Below, one piece after another: positions 8,310 through 55,602 of a DNA stretch of 64,000 bases. The stretch spans positions 372,001 to 436,000 of the forward strand of contig NZ_JACCFQ010000001.1 of the NCBI RefSeq assembly GCF_013410215.1, written 5' to 3'. This stretch comes from Nesterenkonia sandarakina (GTDB lineage: Bacteria; Actinomycetota; Actinomycetes; Actinomycetales; Micrococcaceae). Numbering within the stretch: position 1 is the first letter of the stretch; each line of letters starts with the position of its first letter. Under the pieces are notes generated by a model, which saw nothing but the letters and a program-made list of their open reading frames with translations, was not told where the DNA came from and searched no databases. The translations under genes and the position numbers were made by a program.

Positions 8310-8987
8310 TCAGCTGTCCAGGTGTTCCAGCAGCTCGGCCTCGGCCGCGTCGAGGTAGCTCAGCAGGTACGCCTCGGCGGCGGCCCGATCACCCTGGCTC
8401 AGCAGCCGTGCCAGCTCTCGGTTGCGCACGATGTAGGTGTGATGGAAGCTCGGCTGCTCGGACTTGGCGTAGAACGCCAGTCGCATCCGCGCCAGCACCT
8501 GTTCCATGAGCGCGTCGATCATCGCGCTGCGCACCTGGGCGGCGATGGTGCGGTGGAAGACCTGGTTCGCCTGCGCCATGGCGGGGATGTCTCCGCGCTC
8601 GCGCGCCAGCTCGGCGGCAGAGACGATCCGATGCAGCTGCTCCAGCTCCTCCGGAGGAAAATCCGCGGTCCGCACGGCCCCGACCTCCAGCACCCGGCGG
8701 ACCCGGTAGACCTCCACGACGTCGGCCGCCGTGGGCTGGTGCACGAATACCCCGCGGTTGGGGTGCCGCTCCACCAGGCCTTCCGAGGCCAGGATCTGGA
8801 AGCCGCTGCGCAGCGTGTGTCGAGAGATGTCCAGCTGCCGGGTGAGCTCCACCTCGGGGAGCTTCGACCCCGGACGGATGGTGCCGGCTGAGATCGCTCC
8901 GCGCAGCAGCTCCGCGACTCGTTCCGGCGCCTGAGCGTGCTCATGCAGCCCTTCGGCGGACAAGGAGCTCCACGTCACGTCGGTCAT
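8310..8987 (-). CDS. GntR-family regulator, FadR/FCD subfamily
   Basis: 225 residues. The N-terminal winged helix (about 20-85) has the GntR pattern GAISAGTIRPGSKLPEVEL, ISRHTLRSGFQILASEGLV and NRGVFV. The C-terminal all-helical FCD ligand domain (about 95-220) has its conserved residues in YRVRRVLEVGA, FHRTIA and the H..Y/H..L stretch near FHHTYIVRNRELARLL, which usually coordinate a metal and bind a carboxylic acid. It is the last gene behind pxpA, pxpBC and the biotin carboxylase on the same strand (54-bp gap). It is the obvious candidate to bind the shared GGATTGTT-N-AACAATCC palindromes with 5-oxoproline or glutamate as effector. No operator copy was found immediately upstream of the gene itself. 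Confidence 0.9.
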   Translation of the reverse strand: MTDVTWSSLSAEGLHEHAQAPERVAELLRGAISAGTIRPGSKLPEVELTRQLDISRHTLRSGFQILASEGLVERHPNRGVFVHQPTAADVVEVYRVRRVLEVGAVRTADFPPEELEQLHRIVSAAELARERGDIPAMAQANQVFHRTIAAQVRSAMIDALMEQVLARMRLAFYAKSEQPSFHHTYIVRNRELARLLSQGDRAAAEAYLLSYLDAAEAELLEHLDS

Positions 8988-9041: not shown

Positions 9042-10832
9042 TCATTCGATGCTGCCGAGCACCTGACCGGCCTGCAGCGCCGCACCCGGCGCGAGGTCCT
9101 CCCGGTGGAATCGTCCACCGCGCGGCGCCGCCACAGTGGACTCCATCTTCATCGCCTCCACCACCGCGATCGGATCCCCTGCGGCGACCTCGGCCCCGTC
9201 CTGGACCGCGAAGCTGACCAGGCTGCCCGCCAGCTTCGAGACCACGGCGCCGGGTGCGGTCTGCCCCGGGGTGGTGGCCGCGGCGTCGTCGTCCGGGCTG
9301 GTCGCCTGACTGCCGCCGGCGTTGAGCAGGTTCAGCAGAGCCCCGGGCAGTCCCAGGCTCACGGCTCGGCCGTCGATCTCCACGGTGGTGCGACGCATCC
9401 GCTGCTCACGGTGGCGCAGCGCCGCGGCCAGATGCTCGGACTCGGCCATGGACTCGCCGTAGGCGGCCTCGAACTCGGTCTCGATCCAGCGGGTATGGAC
9501 GCGGAAGCTCTCGGCTCCCTCGGCGGCGAGGAAGTCCTCGGCCTCCAGGACCTGGCGGTGGAAGGGCAGCACGGTGGGCAGGCCCTCGATGCGCATCTCG
9601 GCCAGGGCCATCTGGGCGCGGCGCAGCGTGGTCGCCCGATCCGGGCCGGTCACCACGAGCTTGGCCAGCATCGAGTCGAAGGCCCCGGAGATCTCATCAC
9701 CGCTGCGCACCCCGGTGTCCACGCGGATGCCGGGCCCGGTGGGCGCGGCGAAGAGCTCCACCGGCCCCGGGGTGGGCAGGAACCCGTGGGCTGGCTCCTC
9801 GGCGTTGAGCCGGAACTCCACCGAGTGTCCGCGCGAGGGCGGATCCTCGGTGAAGCGCAGCGGCTGGCCCTCGGCGATGCGCAGCTGCTCAGCCACCAGG
9901 TCCACGCCGGAGGTCTCCTCGGTCACCGGATGCTCCACCTGGAGCCGCGTGTTGACCTCCAGGAAGCTCAGGAGTCCGGGCTGCTCCCCCTGGCCGGGGC
10001 TGAGCAGGTACTCCACGGTGCCCGCCCCGATGTAGCCCGCCTCGGCGCAGATCGCGCGGGCGGAGCGGTGGATCTCCGCGCGCTGGTCCTTGCTGAGGAA
10101 CGGCGCGGGGGCCTCCTCGACCAGCTTCTGGTTGCGCCGCTGCAGCGAGCAGTCGCGCGTGCCGATGACGACGACGTTGCCCTGGGTGTCCGCGAGGACC
10201 TGAGCCTCCACGTGCCGGGGCCGGTCCAGGAAGCGCTCCACGAAGCACTCCCCGCGACCGAAGGCCGATTCTGCCTCCCGCACGGCCGAGGCGAAGGCGT
10301 CTTCGATCTCAGCCTCCTCGCGGACGATGCGCATGCCGCGCCCGCCGCCGCCGTGTGCGGCCTTGATCGCCACCGGCAGACCGTGCTCGGCCACGAACCG
10401 GCGGATCTCCTCGGCGCCGGCGACCGGGCCGTCGGTGCCGGGCACCAGGGGTGCACCGACCTTGACCGCGAGCGCCCGGGCGGTGACCTTGTTCCCTAGC
10501 GATTCGATGGTCTCCGGTCGGGGTCCGATCCAGGTGAGCCCGGCATCGATGACCGCCCGGGCGAAGTCGGCGTTCTCGGAGAGGAAGCCGTAACCCGGGT
10601 GGATCGCGTCGGCGTCGACCTCGCGGGCCGCGGCGAGCAGCTTCTGCTGATCCAGATAACTCTGGGCCGGGGTGGTGCCGTGCAGCGCGACGGCGTCGTC
10701 GGCGAGCTGCACGTGCAGCGAATCAGCGTCCTGATCCGCGTAGACGGCTGCGGCGTGATACCCGGACTCGCGGGCGCTGCGGATGATGCGGACGGCGATC
10801 TCGCCACGGTTGGCGATCAGGATGCGCTTCAT
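9042..10832 (-). CDS. Biotin carboxylase with C-terminal BCCP, linked to 5-oxoprolinase genes
   Basis: 596 residues. The biotin carboxylase part covers about 1-450: [13 protein letters not shown] at the N-terminus, the ATP-grasp glycine loop [28 protein letters not shown], and the cap region through [13 protein letters not shown] variable linker follows, then a biotinyl domain with EAMKMES, Lys 562 being the biotinylation site. The ATG at 10832 overlaps the stop of the fused pxpBC gene (ATGA). No carboxyltransferase of the AccA/AccD kind is adjacent. Its neighbour is instead an AHS1-AHS2 protein, the same fold as the carboxyltransferase part of urea carboxylase. A paralogue at 53722-55602 belongs to the acyl-CoA carboxylase locus. 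A dedicated role in ATP/biotin-dependent 5-oxoproline cleavage is inferred. Confidence 0.9.
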
Positions 10833-12658
10833 GGGGAGGTCTTCTCTTCTGCGTCAGGGGTCGTGGCGGTCTGGGTGGCAGGGGCTGCCGGAGTGTCCGG
10901 GACAGTCGGGTCGTGGGGACCTGGCAGCGGGGTGAGCGTGTCGGGGTCCACCGGCAGGAGCGTGATCTGGTCTCCAGGGGCCAGCTGGGCCGCGCGGGGC
11001 AGGTCTTCGTCGATCACCACTCCGATCACGGGGTATCCCCCGGTCACGGGGTGGTCGTTGAGGAAGAGCACCGGGGTGCCCGCCGGGGGCATCTGCAGCG
11101 AACCACGGACCACGCCCTCACTGGGCAGCTCGCCCTCCTTCAGCCGGCGCAGCGGGCGCATGGCTCCGGCGGCCTCATCGGTGTCGTGCTCGGGGACCCC
11201 GAGTCGGATGCCGATCCGGTTCGAGGACTGGGACACGGACCAGGGCTGAGCCGCCAGCCGGGCGGCCTCCTCGGGGCTGAACCAGTCGGCGCGGGGGCCG
11301 TAGGTGAAGCGCAGCACGGGACCGGCCTCGGTGGAGCCGTGCTCCGCCCCGGGCTGGGGTCCGGGGTCCATCGGCGGCTCGACGGCGCCGCGGACGGCCC
11401 CGGCGGTGCGCAGCCGGTCGCCGACCGCGAGCGGGTCGGGGCCCAGCCCAGACATGGTGTCTGCTGAGACGCTGCCCAGCACCGGGGTGGCGTGGACACC
11501 TCCGCGCAGGCCGATCACGCTGCGCAGTCCACGCTCGGGGCTCCCCAGTCTCAGGATCTCCCCCGCGCTCAGGGCGAAGGGGGCGCGCAGCGGGACGCTC
11601 CGGCTGGCGCCGTCGGGGGCGGTGACCTGCATCGGCACCTGGGCACCGGACACGGCGAGCACCACGGTGGCCTCTGCCTGGAGGGTGAGTCCGCCGTGCA
11701 GCGCTTCGATCACCGCGGCCTGCGGGGCGTTGCCGAGAAGCCGGTTCACCTGGCGGGCGGCGGCTTCGTCGGCGACCCCCGCGCGGGAGACGCCGAGGTC
11801 GCTGAGCCCGCTGCGGCCGAGGTCCTGGATCAGGGCCTGCAGGCCCGGGTCCAGGACCGTGAGCGCGGCGTCCTCCTCCTGCTGGGTCTCTTGCCTTGAG
11901 GCGGGCTGCTCGGAGGTGGATCCGCTGGTGACCGACCGGGCGGGCACGGGCTTATAGCGCACCGAGTCTCCTGGGCGGACCAGCGCCGGTGACTCCCCGT
12001 CGGCTTCGCGGGAGAGGTCCCACATGGTGGCCTGGGTGTGGCCGATCAGCTGCCAGCCGCCCGGGGAGACTCGCGGGTAGACCGCGGAGAACTCACCGGC
12101 CAGGGCGACGGCACCGGCGGGCACGGCGGTGCGTGGGCTGCTGCGGCGCGGCACGTCGAACCGCCCGGACGCCACCGAGGCGGACTCGTCCGAGACAGCA
12201 TCGCCGGACTCGTCCGGGAGGTCCTGACCGGACTGGCCCGAGAGGTCCTGACCGGACCCGGCGCTGGGCACGCAGTAGGCGAACCCCGGGGCGAAGCCGC
12301 CGAAGGCGCCGGTCCAGGTGGTGCTGCTGTGCCAGTGGATCAGTGCCTCGGCGCTGATCCCCAGCTCGGAGGCCAGGTCCTCGAGGTCCGCGCCGTCGTA
12401 GACCACCTCCAGCTCCACGTGGCGGGCGTCTGCGGCGGAGAACTCCCCGAAGGTCAGGGTGGAGAGGCTCTCTCGCGCCTGGCGCAGCGCCGGACGGGCG
12501 GTGAAGCGCAGCAGGATGGTGCGCGCCGCCGCGACGGCCTCCAGCTGACCGGGCAGCGGTTCGCGGCGCAGCTGCTGGTGGCAGGCGAGCACCTCATCTA
12601 GGGTCTGGAACTCCAGCAGCAGCGCGCGGGGGCCGGCCTCTCGAACGGAGCTGATCAT
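10829..12658 (-). CDS. Fused 5-oxoprolinase subunits PxpB-PxpC (AHS1-AHS2, KipI-KipA)
   Basis: 609 residues from ATG 12658, which overlaps the pxpA stop (ATGA). The first half (about 4-236) is the KipI/AHS1 domain with [28 protein letters not shown] and [11 protein letters not shown]. The second half (about 266-585) is the KipA/AHS2 domain with [40 protein letters not shown] and [14 protein letters not shown] Gln/Glu/Ser-rich linker joins them. In most bacteria these are two proteins forming ATP-dependent 5-oxoprolinase with PxpA. The same two domains form the carboxyltransferase half of urea carboxylase. AHS1 carries an unusual Ser/Gly/Asp-rich insertion at about 132-166 with an imperfect SGQDL repeat. 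Confidence 0.92.
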
Positions 12659-13425
12659 GCGAAGCTGCGGATCTCGACTCCGGCGCCCTCCAGGGCGGTG
12701 CGCACCGCGTGCGCCATGGCCACCGCCCCGGCCGTGTCGCCGTGGGTGCAGATGGACTCGGCGCGGGTCTCGATGCGGGTGCCGTCCCGGGCGATCAGCA
12801 CCGACTCCTCGGCCAAGCGCAGCATGTTCTCCACGATCTGCTCGGTGTCGTGGAGCACCGCGTCGGGTTCGCGCCGGGAGACCAGTGTGCCGTCGGGGTT
12901 GTAGCTGCGATCGGCGAAGGCCTCGGAGACCCCGCGCAGACCGGCTTCGGCAGCGAAGTCCAGGGCGATCGAGCCCGGCAGCAGCAGCACCGGCAGATCG
13001 CGTCCGGTGCTGCGCTGATAGGCCGCAATGGTGTCGATGACGGCGTGGGCGTGCTCGGTGTGCGAGATCATCGAGTGGTAGAGGGCACCGTGGGGCTTCA
13101 CGTAGCGGATCTGGGAGCCGGCCGCGGCCGCGATCCCCTCCAGCGCGCCGAGCTGGTAGAGCACATCGGCGGCAAGCTCGTCCCGGGAGCATTCCAGGTG
13201 CCTGCGGCCGAATCCGGCCAGATCGCGGTAGCCGATATGCGCACCGATGACGGCATCGTTCGCCACCGCTTCGGCGGCGGTGGCACGAATGGTCATCGGG
13301 TCCCCGGCATGGAATCCACAGGCGATGTTCGCGCTCGAGACGGTGCGCAGGATCGCGGCGTCGTCGCCGATGGTCCAGTTGCCGAAGGACTCTCCGACGT
13401 CGCTGTTCAGGTCGATCTGTGCCAC
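12655..13425 (-). CDS. pxpA: 5-oxoprolinase subunit PxpA (LamB/YcsF family)
   Basis: 256 residues from GTG 13425, chosen because AGGAGG lies 6 bases upstream and the LamB/YcsF fold starts right there with IDLNSDVGESFG. Other family motifs are SANIACGFHAGDP, GAHIGYRDLAGFGRR, VKPHGALYH, EAFADRSYNPDGTLVSR and CTHGDTAGAV. His and Asp residues in these motifs would line the metal-dependent active site. PxpA with PxpB/PxpC converts 5-oxo-L-proline to glutamate at the cost of ATP. First gene of the operon pxpA-pxpBC-biotin carboxylase-gntR, with three consecutive start/stop junctions at or near overlap. Its promoter carries a perfect copy of the shared operator. Confidence 0.95.
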   Translation of the reverse strand: MAQIDLNSDVGESFGNWTIGDDAAILRTVSSANIACGFHAGDPMTIRATAAEAVANDAVIGAHIGYRDLAGFGRRHLECSRDELAADVLYQLGALEGIAAAAGSQIRYVKPHGALYHSMISHTEHAHAVIDTIAAYQRSTGRDLPVLLLPGSIALDFAAEAGLRGVSEAFADRSYNPDGTLVSRREPDAVLHDTEQIVENMLRLAEESVLIARDGTRIETRAESICTHGDTAGAVAMAHAVRTALEGAGVEIRSFA

Positions 13426-18562: not shown

Positions 18563-18636
18563 GGGTTCGATTCTAGAAGCTCACAGCGGCCGCAGGTCCT
18601 GCCCCGGTCGAACCTGGCGCGCCGGAGACATGAAGA

Positions 18637-18722
18637 GCCCCACGTGCACCTGCCAGAGCCCACTTACCCTTGCTACCTTCCGGTCCTGGGGGAGTTCAGC
18701 AGGATGGCACCGCACGTGGGGC
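18637..18722 (-). ncRNA. ffs: Signal recognition particle RNA (4.5S type)
   Basis: Read on the minus strand, the ends CCCCACGTGC and GCACGTGGGG pair perfectly. The apical part contains the highly conserved Ffh-binding sequence AGGACCGGAAGGTAGCAAGG with its GGAA tetraloop and the asymmetric AGCA bulge. Size about 86 nt, typical of the short bacterial SRP RNA. It binds Ffh and helps target membrane proteins. Exact ends may extend a few bases on each side. It sits in the gap between the decarboxylase and LytR_C genes. Confidence 0.92.
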
Positions 18723-18767
18723 CGGGGTTCATCGTATCTCGGCCTCAGGGTCCAAGGCCAATGGAGC

Positions 18768-48611: not shown

Positions 48612-49763
48612 TCAGGGGGTGGGTCGGAGGTGGGTCACGTCCCCGGCGGAGAAGGCTGCGAGCGCAGGCATCACCGGCGTCCACTCCAGCTCCGGTGCTG
48701 CGCGACGGTCCGTCACCTCCACCTGCAGCGCACCCAGCGGTGTGAGGCCGACGGCGACGCCGCGCTGGGCGCTGCCGTCGGGAAGCTCCACCCGGACCTG
48801 CTGACCGAGCGTGGCCAGCACCTCGGAGACCTGCGCGATCAGCAGCTGCGGCACCGTCTCCGGGTCCCGCTCGGCGGCGGATTCGACGCAGTGCAGAAGG
48901 GCCGCGAAGCGCTCCAGAAAACTGCACAGCAGCTCGGTGCGCAGCGGTCCCAGCTCCGAGCTGCCCAGCTCCAGGCTGCTCGACTGCGGGCTGCTCGACT
49001 GCGCGCTGCTCGCCTCGAGCCCGGCTCCCTGTGGTCCCCGCGGTCCATGAGCGGCGCGGCGGCGCAGCTCGATCAGCACCGAGGTGGAGTTCTCGATGGG
49101 CAGCTGCTCCGGAGTGAGCAGCACGTTGATCCCCACTCCCAGCACGACGGCGCCCGGCCCGGTCCGCCGGGGCCCGGTGGACCCTGCCGAAGTCACCGCC
49201 GCCCGGGCGCCGGTCGAGACGGGTCCGAGCGGGATGGCTGATGAGCCGGGGGCAACTGATCGGGCGGCTGTGGCGGATGAGGCCGGGGAGACCGCAGCGG
49301 CGAGGATTCCGCTGATCTTCTTCGCCGGTCCCTCGGCCTGGGTCACCTGAACATCGTTGGGCCACTTCAGGATCGCGCGCTGGCCCTCGGCGTCCAGCCC
49401 GCAGTCCTGGCGCAGCGTGTCCACGAGCGCGCGCCCGGCCAGCATGGATAGCCAGCCCAGGTGAGCAGGGTCCAGCTGCGGGCGCAGCACGATCGAACTC
49501 GAGAGGGACGCGCCCTTCGGTGAGCTCCAGGCCCGCCCGAGCCGGCCCCGCCCGCTGGTCTGTTCCTCCACAGTGAGCACCGAGAGATGCGGCCACGCAG
49601 TGCCCCGCTGCTCGGTGGCCTCGGCGGTGAGCGCCTGGGTCAGCCACTGATTGGTGGACCCGACCGAGTCCATCCGTTGGATCCGGGAGTAGGCGCCGCC
49701 GGCATCGGTGAGCAGTCGTCGGGCGAGCAGCCCCTCGTCGAGCGGGGGCAGGGCGGCAGTCAT
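48612..49763 (-). CDS. birA: Biotin--[biotin carboxyl carrier protein] ligase
   Basis: 383 residues, class I BirA without an N-terminal DNA-binding domain. The active-site loop SGRGRLGRAWSSPKG, KWPNDVQV with the catalytic Lys, KKISGILAAAV and VLGVGINVLL are standard. Two low-complexity Ser/Gly/Ala/Pro insertions occur, one about 155-205 and one about 240-275 (GLEASSAQSSSPQSSSLELG), which explains the extra 100 residues over the usual 270. It biotinylates BCCP domains such as those at 9042-10832 and 53722-55602. Adjacent to the acyl-CoA carboxylase locus, as in many actinobacteria. Confidence 0.93.
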   Translation of the reverse strand: MTAALPPLDEGLLARRLLTDAGGAYSRIQRMDSVGSTNQWLTQALTAEATEQRGTAWPHLSVLTVEEQTSGRGRLGRAWSSPKGASLSSSIVLRPQLDPAHLGWLSMLAGRALVDTLRQDCGLDAEGQRAILKWPNDVQVTQAEGPAKKISGILAAAVSPASSATAARSVAPGSSAIPLGPVSTGARAAVTSAGSTGPRRTGPGAVVLGVGINVLLTPEQLPIENSTSVLIELRRRAAHGPRGPQGAGLEASSAQSSSPQSSSLELGSSELGPLRTELLCSFLERFAALLHCVESAAERDPETVPQLLIAQVSEVLATLGQQVRVELPDGSAQRGVAVGLTPLGALQVEVTDRRAAPELEWTPVMPALAAFSAGDVTHLRPTP

Positions 49764-50836: not shown

Positions 50837-51015
50837 GGCGACACCCTACCGGTGGGTAACCTCACGTGGAAGCGTCCGACCCGGTCGGAGCACGCAAGTC
50901 CCGCCGGGCTTTTTGTAGAGAGTCCACAGCGGAACCACCCTCGGCCGTGGATAGACTGGCCGCTGAATTGTGGACTTCCTCCAGCCTGCGATCGGAAAGG
51001 TGCCCCCGCGCAGCC

Positions 51016-52599
51016 ATGACGTCAGATCTCACCACCACCGCCGGCAAACTGGCAGACTTCCGCCGGCGCCGCGACAAGACCCATGCCCCAGCCGGGGAGG
51101 AAGCCGTGGCCAAGCAGCACAGCCGCGGGAAGAACACGGCTCGCGAGCGGATCGACATGCTGCTGGACCCCGACTCCTTCGTGGAGCTCGACGCGCTGGC
51201 GGTGCACCGCTCCACCTCCTTCGGGATGGAGACCCGCCATCCGCTCGGGGACGGCCTGGTCTCGGGCTACGGGACCATCGATGGCCGACTGGTCGCGGTC
51301 TACTCCCAGGACTTCACCGTCTTCGGTGGCTCGCTCTCGAAGGTCAACGGCGAGAAGATCGTCAAGGTCCAGGAGTTCGCGGCCCGCAACGGCTGCCCGG
51401 TGATCGGGATCAACGACGGCGGCGGCGCGCGCATCCAGGAGGGCGTGGCCTCACTGGCGATGTTCGCCGACATCTTCCGGAACAACGTGCACTCCTCCGG
51501 AGTGGTCCCGCAGATCACCCTGATCATGGGACCTGCCGCCGGCGGCGCGGCCTACTCTCCTGCCCTGACCGACTTCGTGATCATGGTGGACAAGACCTCG
51601 CACATGTTCATCACCGGACCCGACGTCATCAAGTCGGTCACCGGTGAGGACGTGGACATGGAGACCCTGGGCGGGGCCCGTTCCCATTCCACGGTCACCG
51701 GGACTGCCGCGTATATGGCCTCCGACGAGGCCGACGCCGTGGAGTTCGCCAAGGAGCTCCTGGAGTTCCTGCCGCTGAACAACCTCGCCGAGGCCCCCAT
51801 CGAGGACCACGAGGAGCGGCCCAAGATCGAGACCGGGGACGAGGCGCTGAACGCGCTGATCCCGGATGCCTCCTCCGCGCCCTATGACATGCGCACGCTG
51901 ATCGAGCAGATCCTCGACGACGGCCACTACCTGGAGCTGCAGAGCCTCTACGCGCCCAATGTCAGCATCGGCTTCGGCCGGGTGGAGGGCCGCTCGGTCG
52001 GCGTGGTCGCCAACCAGCCCTCGCAGTTCGCCGGCACCCTGGACATCGCGGCCTCCGAGAAGGCCGCCCGCTTCGTCCGGTTCTGTGACTCCTTCAACAT
52101 CCCGATCCTGACCCTGGTCGACGTCCCGGGTTTCCTGCCCGGCACCGACCAGGAGTTCAACGGGATCATCCGGCGCGGCGCGAAGCTGCTCTACGCCTAC
52201 GCCGAGGCCACCGTCCCGAAGATCACGGTGATCACCCGCAAAGCCTTCGGCGGCGCCTACATCGTGATGGGATCCAAGAAGCTCGGCGCCGATGTGAACC
52301 TGGCCTGGCCCACGGCGCAGATCGGCGTGATGGGCGCTCAGGGCGCGGTGAACATCCTCTACCGACGGGACCTCGCTGCAGTGGAGAAGTCCGGCGGCGA
52401 TGTCGAGGGACGCCGGAAGTCCCTGATCGCTGACTACGAGGCCGAGCTGCTGAACCCCTACCAGGCTGCCGAGCTGGGCTACATCGACGCGGTGATCGAA
52501 CCCGCCGAGACCCGCTGGCAGATCGCCAACGCGCTGCGCGCCACCCAGCACAAGCGCGAGGCGCTGCCGGCCAAGAAGCACGGGAACATTCCGCTCTAG
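51016..52599 (+). CDS. Acyl-CoA carboxylase, carboxyltransferase (beta) subunit
   Basis: 527 residues from ATG 51016, the family-typical N-terminus ([20 protein letters not shown]). Carboxyltransferase fold with [66 protein letters not shown] and [14 protein letters not shown]. It transfers carboxyl from biotin to acetyl- or propionyl-CoA (AccD5/PccB-like) for fatty acid synthesis. First gene of beta-epsilon-maf-alpha. The ATG has no strong Shine-Dalgarno: only GGAAAGG about 20 bases upstream. Confidence 0.95.
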
Positions 52600-53721: not shown

Positions 53722-55602
53722 ATGACCGAGTTCACCAAGGTCCTGATCGCCAACCGCGGCGAGATCGCCGTGCGCGTGATCCGCGCCGCCCAGGACGAGG
53801 GGCTCACCGCCGTCGCCGTCTACGCCGACCCGGACCGTGACTCGGTGCATGTGCGCATGGCCGAGGAGGCCTACGCCTTGGGCGGCGCCACGGCTGCCGA
53901 GAGCTACCTGAGCATCCCCAAGATCCTCGCCGCGGCCCGCGCCACCGGCGCCGACGCGGTGCACCCGGGCTACGGGTTCCTCTCCGAGAACGCCGAGTTC
54001 GCCCAGGCAGTGATCGAAGCCGGGCTGACCTGGATCGGGCCTCCGCCGAAGGCCATCGACACCCTCGGTGACAAGGTCTCAGCACGCCAGCTCGCGGAAC
54101 GGGTCGGCGCGCCGCTGGCTCCGGGGACGAAGGAGCCGGTCAAGGACGCCAAGGAGGTCCTGCGCTTCGCCGAGAAGCAGGGACTGCCGCTGGCCATCAA
54201 GGCCGCCTACGGCGGCGGCGGGCGCGGGATCAAGGTGGTCCGCGAGTACGACGAGATCGCCGAGCTCTACGAATCCGCGGTGCGCGAAGCCGTCTCAGCC
54301 TTCGGGCGCGGCGAATGCTTCATCGAACGATTCCTGGACTCCCCGCGCCACGTGGAGACCCAGTGCCTGGCGGACGAGCACGGCAACGTCGTCGTGGTCT
54401 CCACCCGCGACTGCTCGCTGCAGCGGCGGAACCAGAAGCTCGTGGAGGAGGCCCCCGCGCCGTTCCTGACCCGGGCGCAGAACCGACAGCTCTACCGCGC
54501 CTCGAAGGCCATCCTGAAGGAGGCCGGCTATGTGGGCGCCGGCACCTGCGAGTTCCTCATCGGCCAGGACGGCACCATCAGCTTCCTGGAGGTCAACACC
54601 CGGCTGCAGGTCGAGCACCCGGTCTCCGAGGAGGTCACCGGCATCGACCTGGTCCGCGAGCAGTTCCGGATCGCGCGCGGCGAGCGTCTGGGCTATGAGG
54701 ATCCGGAGATCCGCGGGCACAGCATCGAGTTCCGCATCAACGGCGAGGACCCGGGCCGGAACTTCATGCCGGCACCGGGCACCCTGGAGGTCTTCGACCT
54801 GCCGCACGGACCAGGGGTCCGGGTGGACTCCGGGGTCCACGCCGGAGAGACCATCTCCGGGGCCTTCGACTCCATGATCGCCAAGGTCATCATCACCGGC
54901 GCCACCCGCGAGCAGGCGCTGCGCCGCGCCCGACGCGCGCTGAAGGAGATGAAGGTCGAAGGCATGCCCACAGTGCTGCCCTTCCACCGCGCGGTGCTCG
55001 AAGACAGCGCGTTCGCTCCGGAGCTGGTCTCAGAGGGCGCCGGCTCGGCCTCCAGCAGCTCCGCTACAGCCGGTGGCCACGGCAACGCGGTCTCCCAGGC
55101 GGCGGAGCGACTGGCACGACGACGGGCGCAGGCCCCGGAGCGCTTCCATGTGCACACGCGATGGATCGAGACCGAGTTCAACAACCAGATCCCGCCCTAT
55201 AACGCGCTGATGGCCCACCCGGCGCACGAGCACGAAGCCCCGCGCGAGTCAGTCGTGATGGAGGTCAACGGCAAACGGATCACCGTGAACCTGCCCGCCG
55301 CCCTCTCCGGCGGCAAGCTTGGGGGCAAGCCGGCCGGGGGCAGGAAGCGGCGCAAGACCCGCAGCGCCGCGGCCGCCGCGGCCTCCGGAGATGACCTGAC
55401 CTCGCCGATGCAGGGCACGATCGTCAAAGTGGCCGCGAAGGACGGCGCGAAGGTCGCCGAGGGCGATCTGGTGCTGGTGCTGGAGGCGATGAAGATGGAG
55501 CAGCCGATCACGGCGCACAAGGCCGGACGACTCAAGGGGCTCAAGGCGAAGGCCGGCTCCACGGTGACCGCCGGCCAGGTCGTGGCCAGCATCGTCGACT
55601 GA
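53722..55602 (+). CDS. Acyl-CoA carboxylase alpha subunit (biotin carboxylase-BCCP)
   Basis: 626 residues, AccA3/PccA-like. Biotin carboxylase (about 1-450): [70 protein letters not shown]. The C-terminal biotinyl domain has EAMKMEQ with Lys 591. An extra Ser/Gly-rich insertion at about 440-465 and a Lys/Gly-rich linker (about 535-550) precede BCCP. It carboxylates biotin with ATP and bicarbonate for the beta subunit at 51016-52599. The paralogue at 9042-10832 serves the pxp operon instead. Confidence 0.95.

Follow-up and report, generated by a model that had tools for sequence, protein, structure and literature searches.

Gene content of the operon

Within a 64,000-nucleotide stretch of Nesterenkonia sandarakina (contig NZ_JACCFQ010000001.1, positions 372,001 to 436,000; hereafter the window, to whose first letter coordinates refer), we examined an operon that joins genes of the PxpABC type of 5-oxoprolinase to a biotin-dependent carboxylase subunit and suggests a biotin-coupled 5-oxoprolinase. 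The genes run on the minus strand in the order pxpA (12655-13425; 256 amino acids, LamB/YcsF family), a pxpB-pxpC fusion (pxpBC, 10829-12658; 609 amino acids, domain CT_C_D followed by CT_A_B), a gene for an AccA3-type biotin carboxylase and biotin carboxyl carrier protein in one chain (BC-BCCP, 9042-10832; 596 amino acids) and gntR (8310-8987), encoding a regulator with GntR and FCD domains. The start codon of pxpA is GTG, with the strong ribosome site AAGGAGG closely 5' to it, the pxpA/pxpBC and pxpBC/BC-BCCP junctions are both four-base overlaps (ATGA), and 54 bases separate BC-BCCP from gntR on the same strand. This gene order, with its places, overlaps and trailing gntR, had been described in an earlier reading of the DNA letters by a model (the original prediction) and is borne out by the open reading frame positions, the Pfam matches and the ATGA junctions.

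Pfam scores were high for the domains of PxpA (PF03746, LamB_YcsF, 308 bits) and of the fusion (CT_A_B, 244 bits, and CT_C_D, 155 bits, against cut-offs of 25 and 22), and BC-BCCP carried Biotin_carb_N, CPSase_L_D2, Biotin_carb_C and Biotin_lipoyl. Consistent with the original prediction, all module kinds of urea carboxylase (BC, BCCP, CT_A_B and CT_C_D) are therefore found by Pfam in this one operon. PxpA also passed the NCBIfam subfamily model NF003814 (331 bits; cut-off 226), whereas the PxpB and PxpC parts scored below the equivalog cut-offs of TIGR00370 (101.6 against 145.55) and NF045499 (140.4 against 500), so that the fusion is better called PxpBC-like than a standard member. The urea carboxylase model TIGR02712, with a cut-off of 1303.85, reached 516.6 and 145.1 bits, split over two proteins.

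The best solved relatives of BC-BCCP were 5mlk and mycobacterial AccA3 chains (E ~1e-200, residues 2-595). Across 45 sequences linked to pxp genes, 12 of the 13 BC positions checked, which we take to represent the catalytic set (K116, K159, H209, E211, Q237, K238, E276, E288, N290, R292, V295 and R338, E. coli numbering), were invariant, the single gap, at R338, being taken as L133, a locus whose BC copy is incomplete at a contig end. The thirteenth, position 236, was variable, as it is in other BCs. An AMKM-like biotin site was present in 44 of the 45 (the miss again being L133), with AMKM itself in the window copy.

Three genes of the genome contain Biotin_carb_C, namely the operon BC-BCCP, the alpha subunit of an acyl-CoA carboxylase (53722-55602) and a third in a 1168-amino-acid frame, taken for pyruvate carboxylase from size alone. 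The genome's one Carboxyl_trans (AccD) match (frame 50866-52599, start taken as 51016) adjoins that alpha subunit and not the operon; a biotin protein ligase gene (48612-49763) is close to both, ~1 kb away from accD and 4 kb away from the alpha subunit gene. With an AccD query (E 1e-8), in a scan that had a positive control, no match was obtained in 80 pxpA loci, 28 regions from the genus and 14 regions from annotated records (13 plasmid and one E. coli), and PxpBC was the sole carboxyltransferase-fold protein found at the operon. The earlier claims of a separate alpha subunit at 53722-55602 and of no AccD-type carboxyltransferase beside the operon are thus confirmed.

These results bear on whether BC-BCCP stands in the operon by chance, as a surplus alpha subunit of acyl-CoA carboxylase that serves AccD-type transferases. 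Its AccA3-like sequence would fit such a role, as it is 63-64% identical to the housekeeping alpha subunit, about as close as to many linked copies, and linked and housekeeping copies are mixed in the BC tree described below. However, the sole genomic AccD already has its own alpha subunit, AccD matches were missing from all three sets of regions scanned, the gene junctions are tight and BC-BCCP appears to have been co-transferred with PxpBC into Proteobacteria, and we regard a chance placement as very unlikely.

Linkage and shared history of PxpBC and BC-BCCP

Of the 25 further genomes examined in the genus, 18 had BC-BCCP beside a fused pxpBC, the arrangement that the original prediction reported from one locus, and so did 39 of 80 pxpA loci; it is not special to the source genome. 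Counting the latter, the 26 genus genomes comprised 19 with the BC-linked operon, six with BC-less pxp loci only and one with no match, and a GntR match lay behind BC-BCCP in all 18 BC-linked loci of the other genomes. Searching 84,980 species genomes with a PxpA profile gave at least 584 loci, of which the best 80 were analysed: 39 were BC-linked, 32 had PxpC without BC, although five of these lie so close to a contig end that a BC could have been missed, and nine had no PxpC nearby. The distance from the pxpC stop to the aligned BC start was at most 20 bases in 25 of the 39 BC-linked loci and at most 195 in all of them. BC linkage was found in 19/19 Pseudomonadota loci compared with 20/47 classifiable Actinomycetota loci (Fisher p 4e-6, kinship ignored, with the nine loci without PxpC and the five near contig ends left out). 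Because the proteobacterial copies form one clade, the weight of this contrast lies on retention rather than on 19 separate gains.

As the PxpA search was biased towards the window, it was repeated with PxpBC as query. Matches at E 1e-50 or better occurred in 7/199 and 7/200 genomes of two proteobacterial orders, and an AccA3-type BC stood directly behind PxpC in all 15 of their loci (13/13 without the seed genomes G028 and G029, which were chosen from BC-linked loci). Within the order of a Mycobacterium genome, 141 of 150 genomes had a PxpBC match at E 1e-40 or better. Thirty loci were inspected (the best 30 matches among the 141 genomes, with 1.5 kb beyond the match), and an AccA3-type BC stood beside PxpBC in none of them; one (L191) had an AccC-type BC and another (L188) a BC fragment at the edge.

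Pseudomonadales carried type-I PxpBC in 2 of 145 genomes, namely the seed and G063. Among 39 Pseudomonadaceae genomes sampled, 31 had CT_A_B; many of these genes were urea carboxylase, and most of the remaining CT_A_B genes had no close BC among the matches listed. The 30 Pseudomonadaceae loci inspected comprised 22 urea carboxylases, one BC-linked Lys-type locus and seven E. coli-like or L. plantarum-like loci, for which no BC was found in the stretch inspected. Frames of 537-573 amino acids with a BC match at most 2 kb away were present in G026, G727 and G734, the last two called type I from frame length alone; for G738 (557 amino acids) there was no BC among the matches listed on its contig. 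This picture indicates that the linkage belongs to a lineage and not to all PxpABC systems.

Other arrangements were also encountered. In Lactiplantibacillus plantarum and Rhizobium phaseoli the pxp genes are separate and accompanied by BC and BCCP; a plasmid of the latter species (L067, 4271-8997) has two carrier-protein genes that flank one AccC-type BC, followed by pxpB, pxpC and pxpA. Genome G011 contains, in addition to a BC-linked type-I operon, a distant BC/PxpC/PxpA locus (L044; 49, 28 and 31% identity). In G002 the BC-linked operon (L045) has a pyroglutamyl peptidase match nearby, and pxpA was not found beside it; a BC-less locus elsewhere in the same genome (L061) has pxpA.

Phylogenetic trees were built with FastTree, support values being taken only for the two BC-tree nodes given below. 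The PxpBC tree, from which L087, L099 and L140 (too short) and L102 (no PxpB match) were omitted, placed all BC-linked fusions but L097 in one group, which also enclosed four BC-less actinobacteria as nested members. In the BC tree, which leaves out L133, linked copies and five actinobacterial housekeeping alpha subunits formed one AccA3 group (support 0.70) in which linked and housekeeping copies were mixed, and the proteobacterial linked copies were a single clade inside it (support 0.98). Distances of PxpBC and BC-BCCP were congruent (Mantel r 0.88, p 0.0001, n = 37, without L133 and L140). Proteobacteria use AccB/AccC. Most simply, PxpBC and BC-BCCP would have moved jointly into Proteobacteria and been retained jointly there, whereas actinobacteria could do without a linked BC because AccA3 is present. 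In the three nested BC-less members that were checked, an AccA3-type subunit 60-62% identical to the window BC was indeed encoded elsewhere in the genome (L236-L238).

Genomic context and candidate substrate

Two further minus-strand genes, both with unfixed start codons and neither mentioned in the original prediction, lie near the window start. The first (1315-2640) encodes an NRAMP transporter of the PxpT/YcsG kind and candidate 5-oxoproline importer (Pfam Nramp, 51.8 bits against a cut-off of 29.8), 51% identical over 393 amino acids to the NRAMP protein of a Klebsiella plasmid pxp operon. The second (506-1363) encodes a D-glutamate cyclase (PF07286, 217.7 bits), an enzyme whose product is 5-oxo-D-proline; it is 61.5% identical over 252 amino acids to the gene within that Klebsiella plasmid operon, and elsewhere in pxp operons such genes carry the label 'putative hydro-lyase'. 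A reduced second PxpB-PxpC gene (G000:C1:368558-369949), with PxpB recognisable in the first 55 residues only, lies ~2 kb beyond the window's low end and a few kb from these D-glutamate cyclase and NRAMP genes, and several other genomes of the genus have a second CT_A_B copy 10-15 kb from the main one. In Corynebacterium glutamicum, the NRAMP relative PxpT is described as needed for growth on 5-oxoproline and PxpR as a GntR regulator that binds it (PMC13274462). By likeness to PxpR, the gntR product of the operon is a candidate 5-oxoproline-responsive repressor.

A PxpT-like NRAMP gene was present in the fetched region of 17/18 BC-linked loci of the genus and in 0/8 BC-less-only regions. Among the best 80 loci the NRAMP contrast was weaker (18 of 39 BC-linked against 8 of 32 BC-less), and NRAMP, pyroglutamyl peptidase or DUF979 lay near 25 of the former and 9 of the latter, with pyroglutamyl peptidase near 3 and 0 and DUF979 near 6 and 1, respectively. 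Pyroglutamyl peptidase, which releases 5-oxoproline, is encoded inside the operon in a Comamonadaceae record and others. Genes for DUF969 and DUF979 membrane proteins precede pxpA at several loci (L069, 2080-4519; L115, L126, L135 and L142), sometimes with pyroglutamyl peptidase, and are a possible transporter of 5-oxoproline or peptides.

Taken together, the gene context points to 5-oxoproline as the substrate. The complex could instead be a biotin carboxylase for another lactam or a urea-like compound, 5-oxoproline being an inherited annotation; PxpB and PxpC scores below the equivalog cut-offs would fit this, as would the NRAMP genes near BC-less loci and the joint presence of BC-less and BC-linked systems in three genomes (G002, G013 and G024), which suggests divided roles. 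The sharp NRAMP contrast within the genus and the D-glutamate cyclase and pyroglutamyl peptidase genes within operons speak against another substrate, and we consider it decidedly improbable. Elsewhere in the window, a small bacterial signal recognition particle RNA (Rfam RF00169) was found at 18630-18726 on the minus strand.

A possible biotin-coupled route of ring opening

An AlphaFold model of PxpBC (mean predicted local distance difference test score, pLDDT, of 87) matched TTHA0988, MSMEG_0435-0436, E. coli YbgJK, urea carboxylase and PDB entry 9yx5 in Foldseek, in line with the carboxyltransferase fold of urea carboxylase that the original prediction had assigned to it. The last entry is titled 'Structure of the long chain acyl-CoA carboxylase complex from Mycobacterium smegmatis with MSMEG_0435-MSMEG_0436 bound'; from its title and chain sequences, which are the evidence used here, it combines AccA3, of the same BC-BCCP type, with homologues of PxpC and PxpB. 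A sequence search did not find PxpA among its chains, and an entry-name search of the open-licence literature found no paper on it. The prediction had made BC-BCCP a part of the PxpABC machine and PxpBC its carboxyltransferase-like partner. This claim is supported by the linkage seen in several phyla, by its retention in Proteobacteria, by the agreement of PxpBC and BC-BCCP distances, by the lack of an AccD match in the loci scanned, by the sole AccD gene lying elsewhere and by 9yx5, and we consider it very probable that BC-BCCP is a true working partner of PxpBC.

We propose that the ring is activated by biotin-borne CO2 and not by direct phosphorylation. BC-BCCP would use ATP and bicarbonate to form carboxybiotin on its own carrier domain, PxpBC, in the role of the urea carboxylase carboxyltransferase, would carboxylate the 5-oxoproline lactam from it, and PxpA would hydrolyse the activated ring to N-carboxyglutamate, which would lose CO2 to give glutamate. 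The net reaction would be ATP, 5-oxoproline and two water to ADP, phosphate and glutamate, which equals the accepted ATP-dependent reaction, so that the two mechanisms are easily confused. Observed directly are the genes present, their linkage and common history, the preserved BC and biotin sites and the 5-oxoproline context, and the deposited 9yx5 record adds that PxpBC homologues bind an AccA3-containing carboxylase in M. smegmatis. That 5-oxoproline receives the carboxyl group, and in which order the steps run, we infer. N-carboxylation followed by PxpA hydrolysis is chemically sound and appears the likeliest mechanism, and we hold it, with moderate confidence, to be the one that operates in this lineage.

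Several observations weigh against this proposal. The proposed general base of urea carboxylase is K1605 of the Kluyveromyces lactis enzyme (PMC5770610), and at the equivalent column, located by residue counting, the window PxpB has Arg171, with Arg in all 39 BC-linked type-I rows aligned. The Lys is kept in L071, L075 and L076 (motif PKYxxPRT), a separate PxpB/PxpC-like family. This Lys-bearing family adjoins PxpA, and in L075 and L076 (Haladaptatus and Rhizobium johnstonii) BC and BCCP as well. Only five alignment columns passing the filter separated BC-linked from BC-less PxpBC, so that a nearly identical protein must serve forms without a linked BC; either both forms use biotin, with a housekeeping carboxylase lent to the BC-less ones, or neither does, or one site supports two chemistries. 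In a search for residues marking the BC-linked form, the clearest column, in PxpC, had Pro in 34/39 linked and Arg in 21/29 BC-less sequences, Lys in urea carboxylase and Ala560 in the window, which thus lacks the commonest BC-linked residue. As Pro is shared by three of the four nested BC-less members, this column tracks descent and not linkage, and it was set aside as a marker, a result that makes a mechanism found in BC-linked systems alone less likely. Arg171 and the few differences between the two forms also argue that the system does not simply copy urea carboxylase. In addition, the BC-linked clade contains BC-less members (L086, L089, L090 and L111), six genomes of the genus are BC-less only and 5-oxoproline genes are not limited to BC-linked loci, with NRAMP near 8/32 BC-less ones. 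The Bacillus subtilis PxpABC has reportedly been reconstituted from recombinant proteins alone, which favours no BC need in that branch, and 9yx5 could reflect regulation or chance binding.

Much of this would suit the accepted model, in which PxpBC phosphorylates 5-oxoproline and PxpA opens the ring, with BC-BCCP bound for regulation or as a link to carboxylase or biotin status and no chemical transfer. BC-linked and BC-less PxpBC hardly differ, the base Lys is replaced by Arg, 9yx5 represents binding and not transfer, and published passages describe phosphorylation by PxpBC and report ATP hydrolysis for PxpB/PxpC. A regulator, however, would have no use for BC catalytic residues or a biotin site, yet both are intact in all copies of sufficient length, and such a role leaves unexplained both the retention of BC in 15/15 proteobacterial loci and the fold that PxpBC shares with urea carboxylase carboxyltransferase domains. 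We therefore find regulation without transfer rather unlikely. A wider version of the biotin-coupled proposal holds that PxpBC is a biotin-dependent lactam carboxyltransferase throughout and that BC-less genomes borrow the housekeeping BC, as 9yx5 suggests for mycobacteria, the phosphorylation model being wrong or partial; we consider this generalization improbable.

The operon shares its PxpA, PxpB and PxpC domains and 5-oxoproline context with PxpABC of B. subtilis, E. coli and C. glutamicum, and an NRAMP transporter and GntR regulator with C. glutamicum pxpTABC. It differs in the PxpB-PxpC fusion and the dedicated AccA3-type BC-BCCP, as the C. glutamicum and E. coli operons are described or annotated without BC. 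Like urea carboxylase with allophanate hydrolase, it provides BC, BCCP and a CT_A_B and CT_C_D transferase, and would follow them with a hydrolase of the N-carboxylated product; unlike that system, it has three chains (against one or two), the carboxyltransferase halves in the opposite order, PxpA in place of an amidase-type allophanate hydrolase and Arg in place of the proposed general-base Lys. The operon would thus work like urea carboxylase but, with several chains, scores below the family cut-off and Arg171, is not one by membership. BC-BCCP resembles an AccA3-type acyl-CoA carboxylase alpha subunit in domain order, length and sequence, and differs in being linked to PxpBC with no AccD partner at the locus. 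In 9yx5, PxpC and PxpB homologues are likewise complexed with AccA3, but there AccA3 is part of an acyl-CoA carboxylase and PxpA is not among the chains. Caprolactamase CapAB and the eukaryotic-type 5-oxoprolinase also open lactams with ATP, but form an unrelated family without biotin, of which CapAB is described as requiring bicarbonate (PMC8453981).

The classical Pseudomonas putida 5-oxoprolinase is described as a component A assembled from six dimers, each of a 64 and a 51 kDa chain, with 5-oxoproline-dependent ATPase activity, and a component B of 82 kDa that is needed for hydrolysis (PMC8453981). Computed masses for type-I Pseudomonas proteins were 61-62 kDa for BC-BCCP, 54-57 kDa for PxpBC and 27 kDa for PxpA (three chains, 81-82 kDa). 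This match of component A to BC-BCCP with PxpBC and of component B to three PxpA chains, by which, under the wider version above, the classical enzyme might have been such a complex, is suggestive only; PxpA is described as probably a tetramer (PMC8453981), which would give ~108 kDa, and this description slightly lowers the odds of the wider version. In the accessible parts of the open-licence literature, we found no proposal of a biotin role in PxpABC, although an earlier remark elsewhere is possible. One passage, on Lactiplantibacillus pentosus, interprets an additional BC/BCCP pair as acetyl-CoA carboxylase, handling pxpB and pxpC apart from it, and a mycobacterial PII paper names both AccA3 and MSMEG_0435, with no link between them in the passages concerned.

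Glutamine and glutamate give rise to 5-oxoproline spontaneously, and most analysed prokaryotic genomes are reported to encode the PxpABC type of 5-oxoprolinase (PMC13274462). The proposal offers a reason for the puzzling 9yx5 structure and makes the mechanism of PxpBC directly testable. If it is true, a large lineage opens the 5-oxoproline ring by biotin carboxylation. Biotin would then act on a lactam, a role new for this cofactor, which would explain the carboxyltransferase fold of PxpB and PxpC, and 5-oxoproline clearance in these bacteria would hinge on biotin and bicarbonate.

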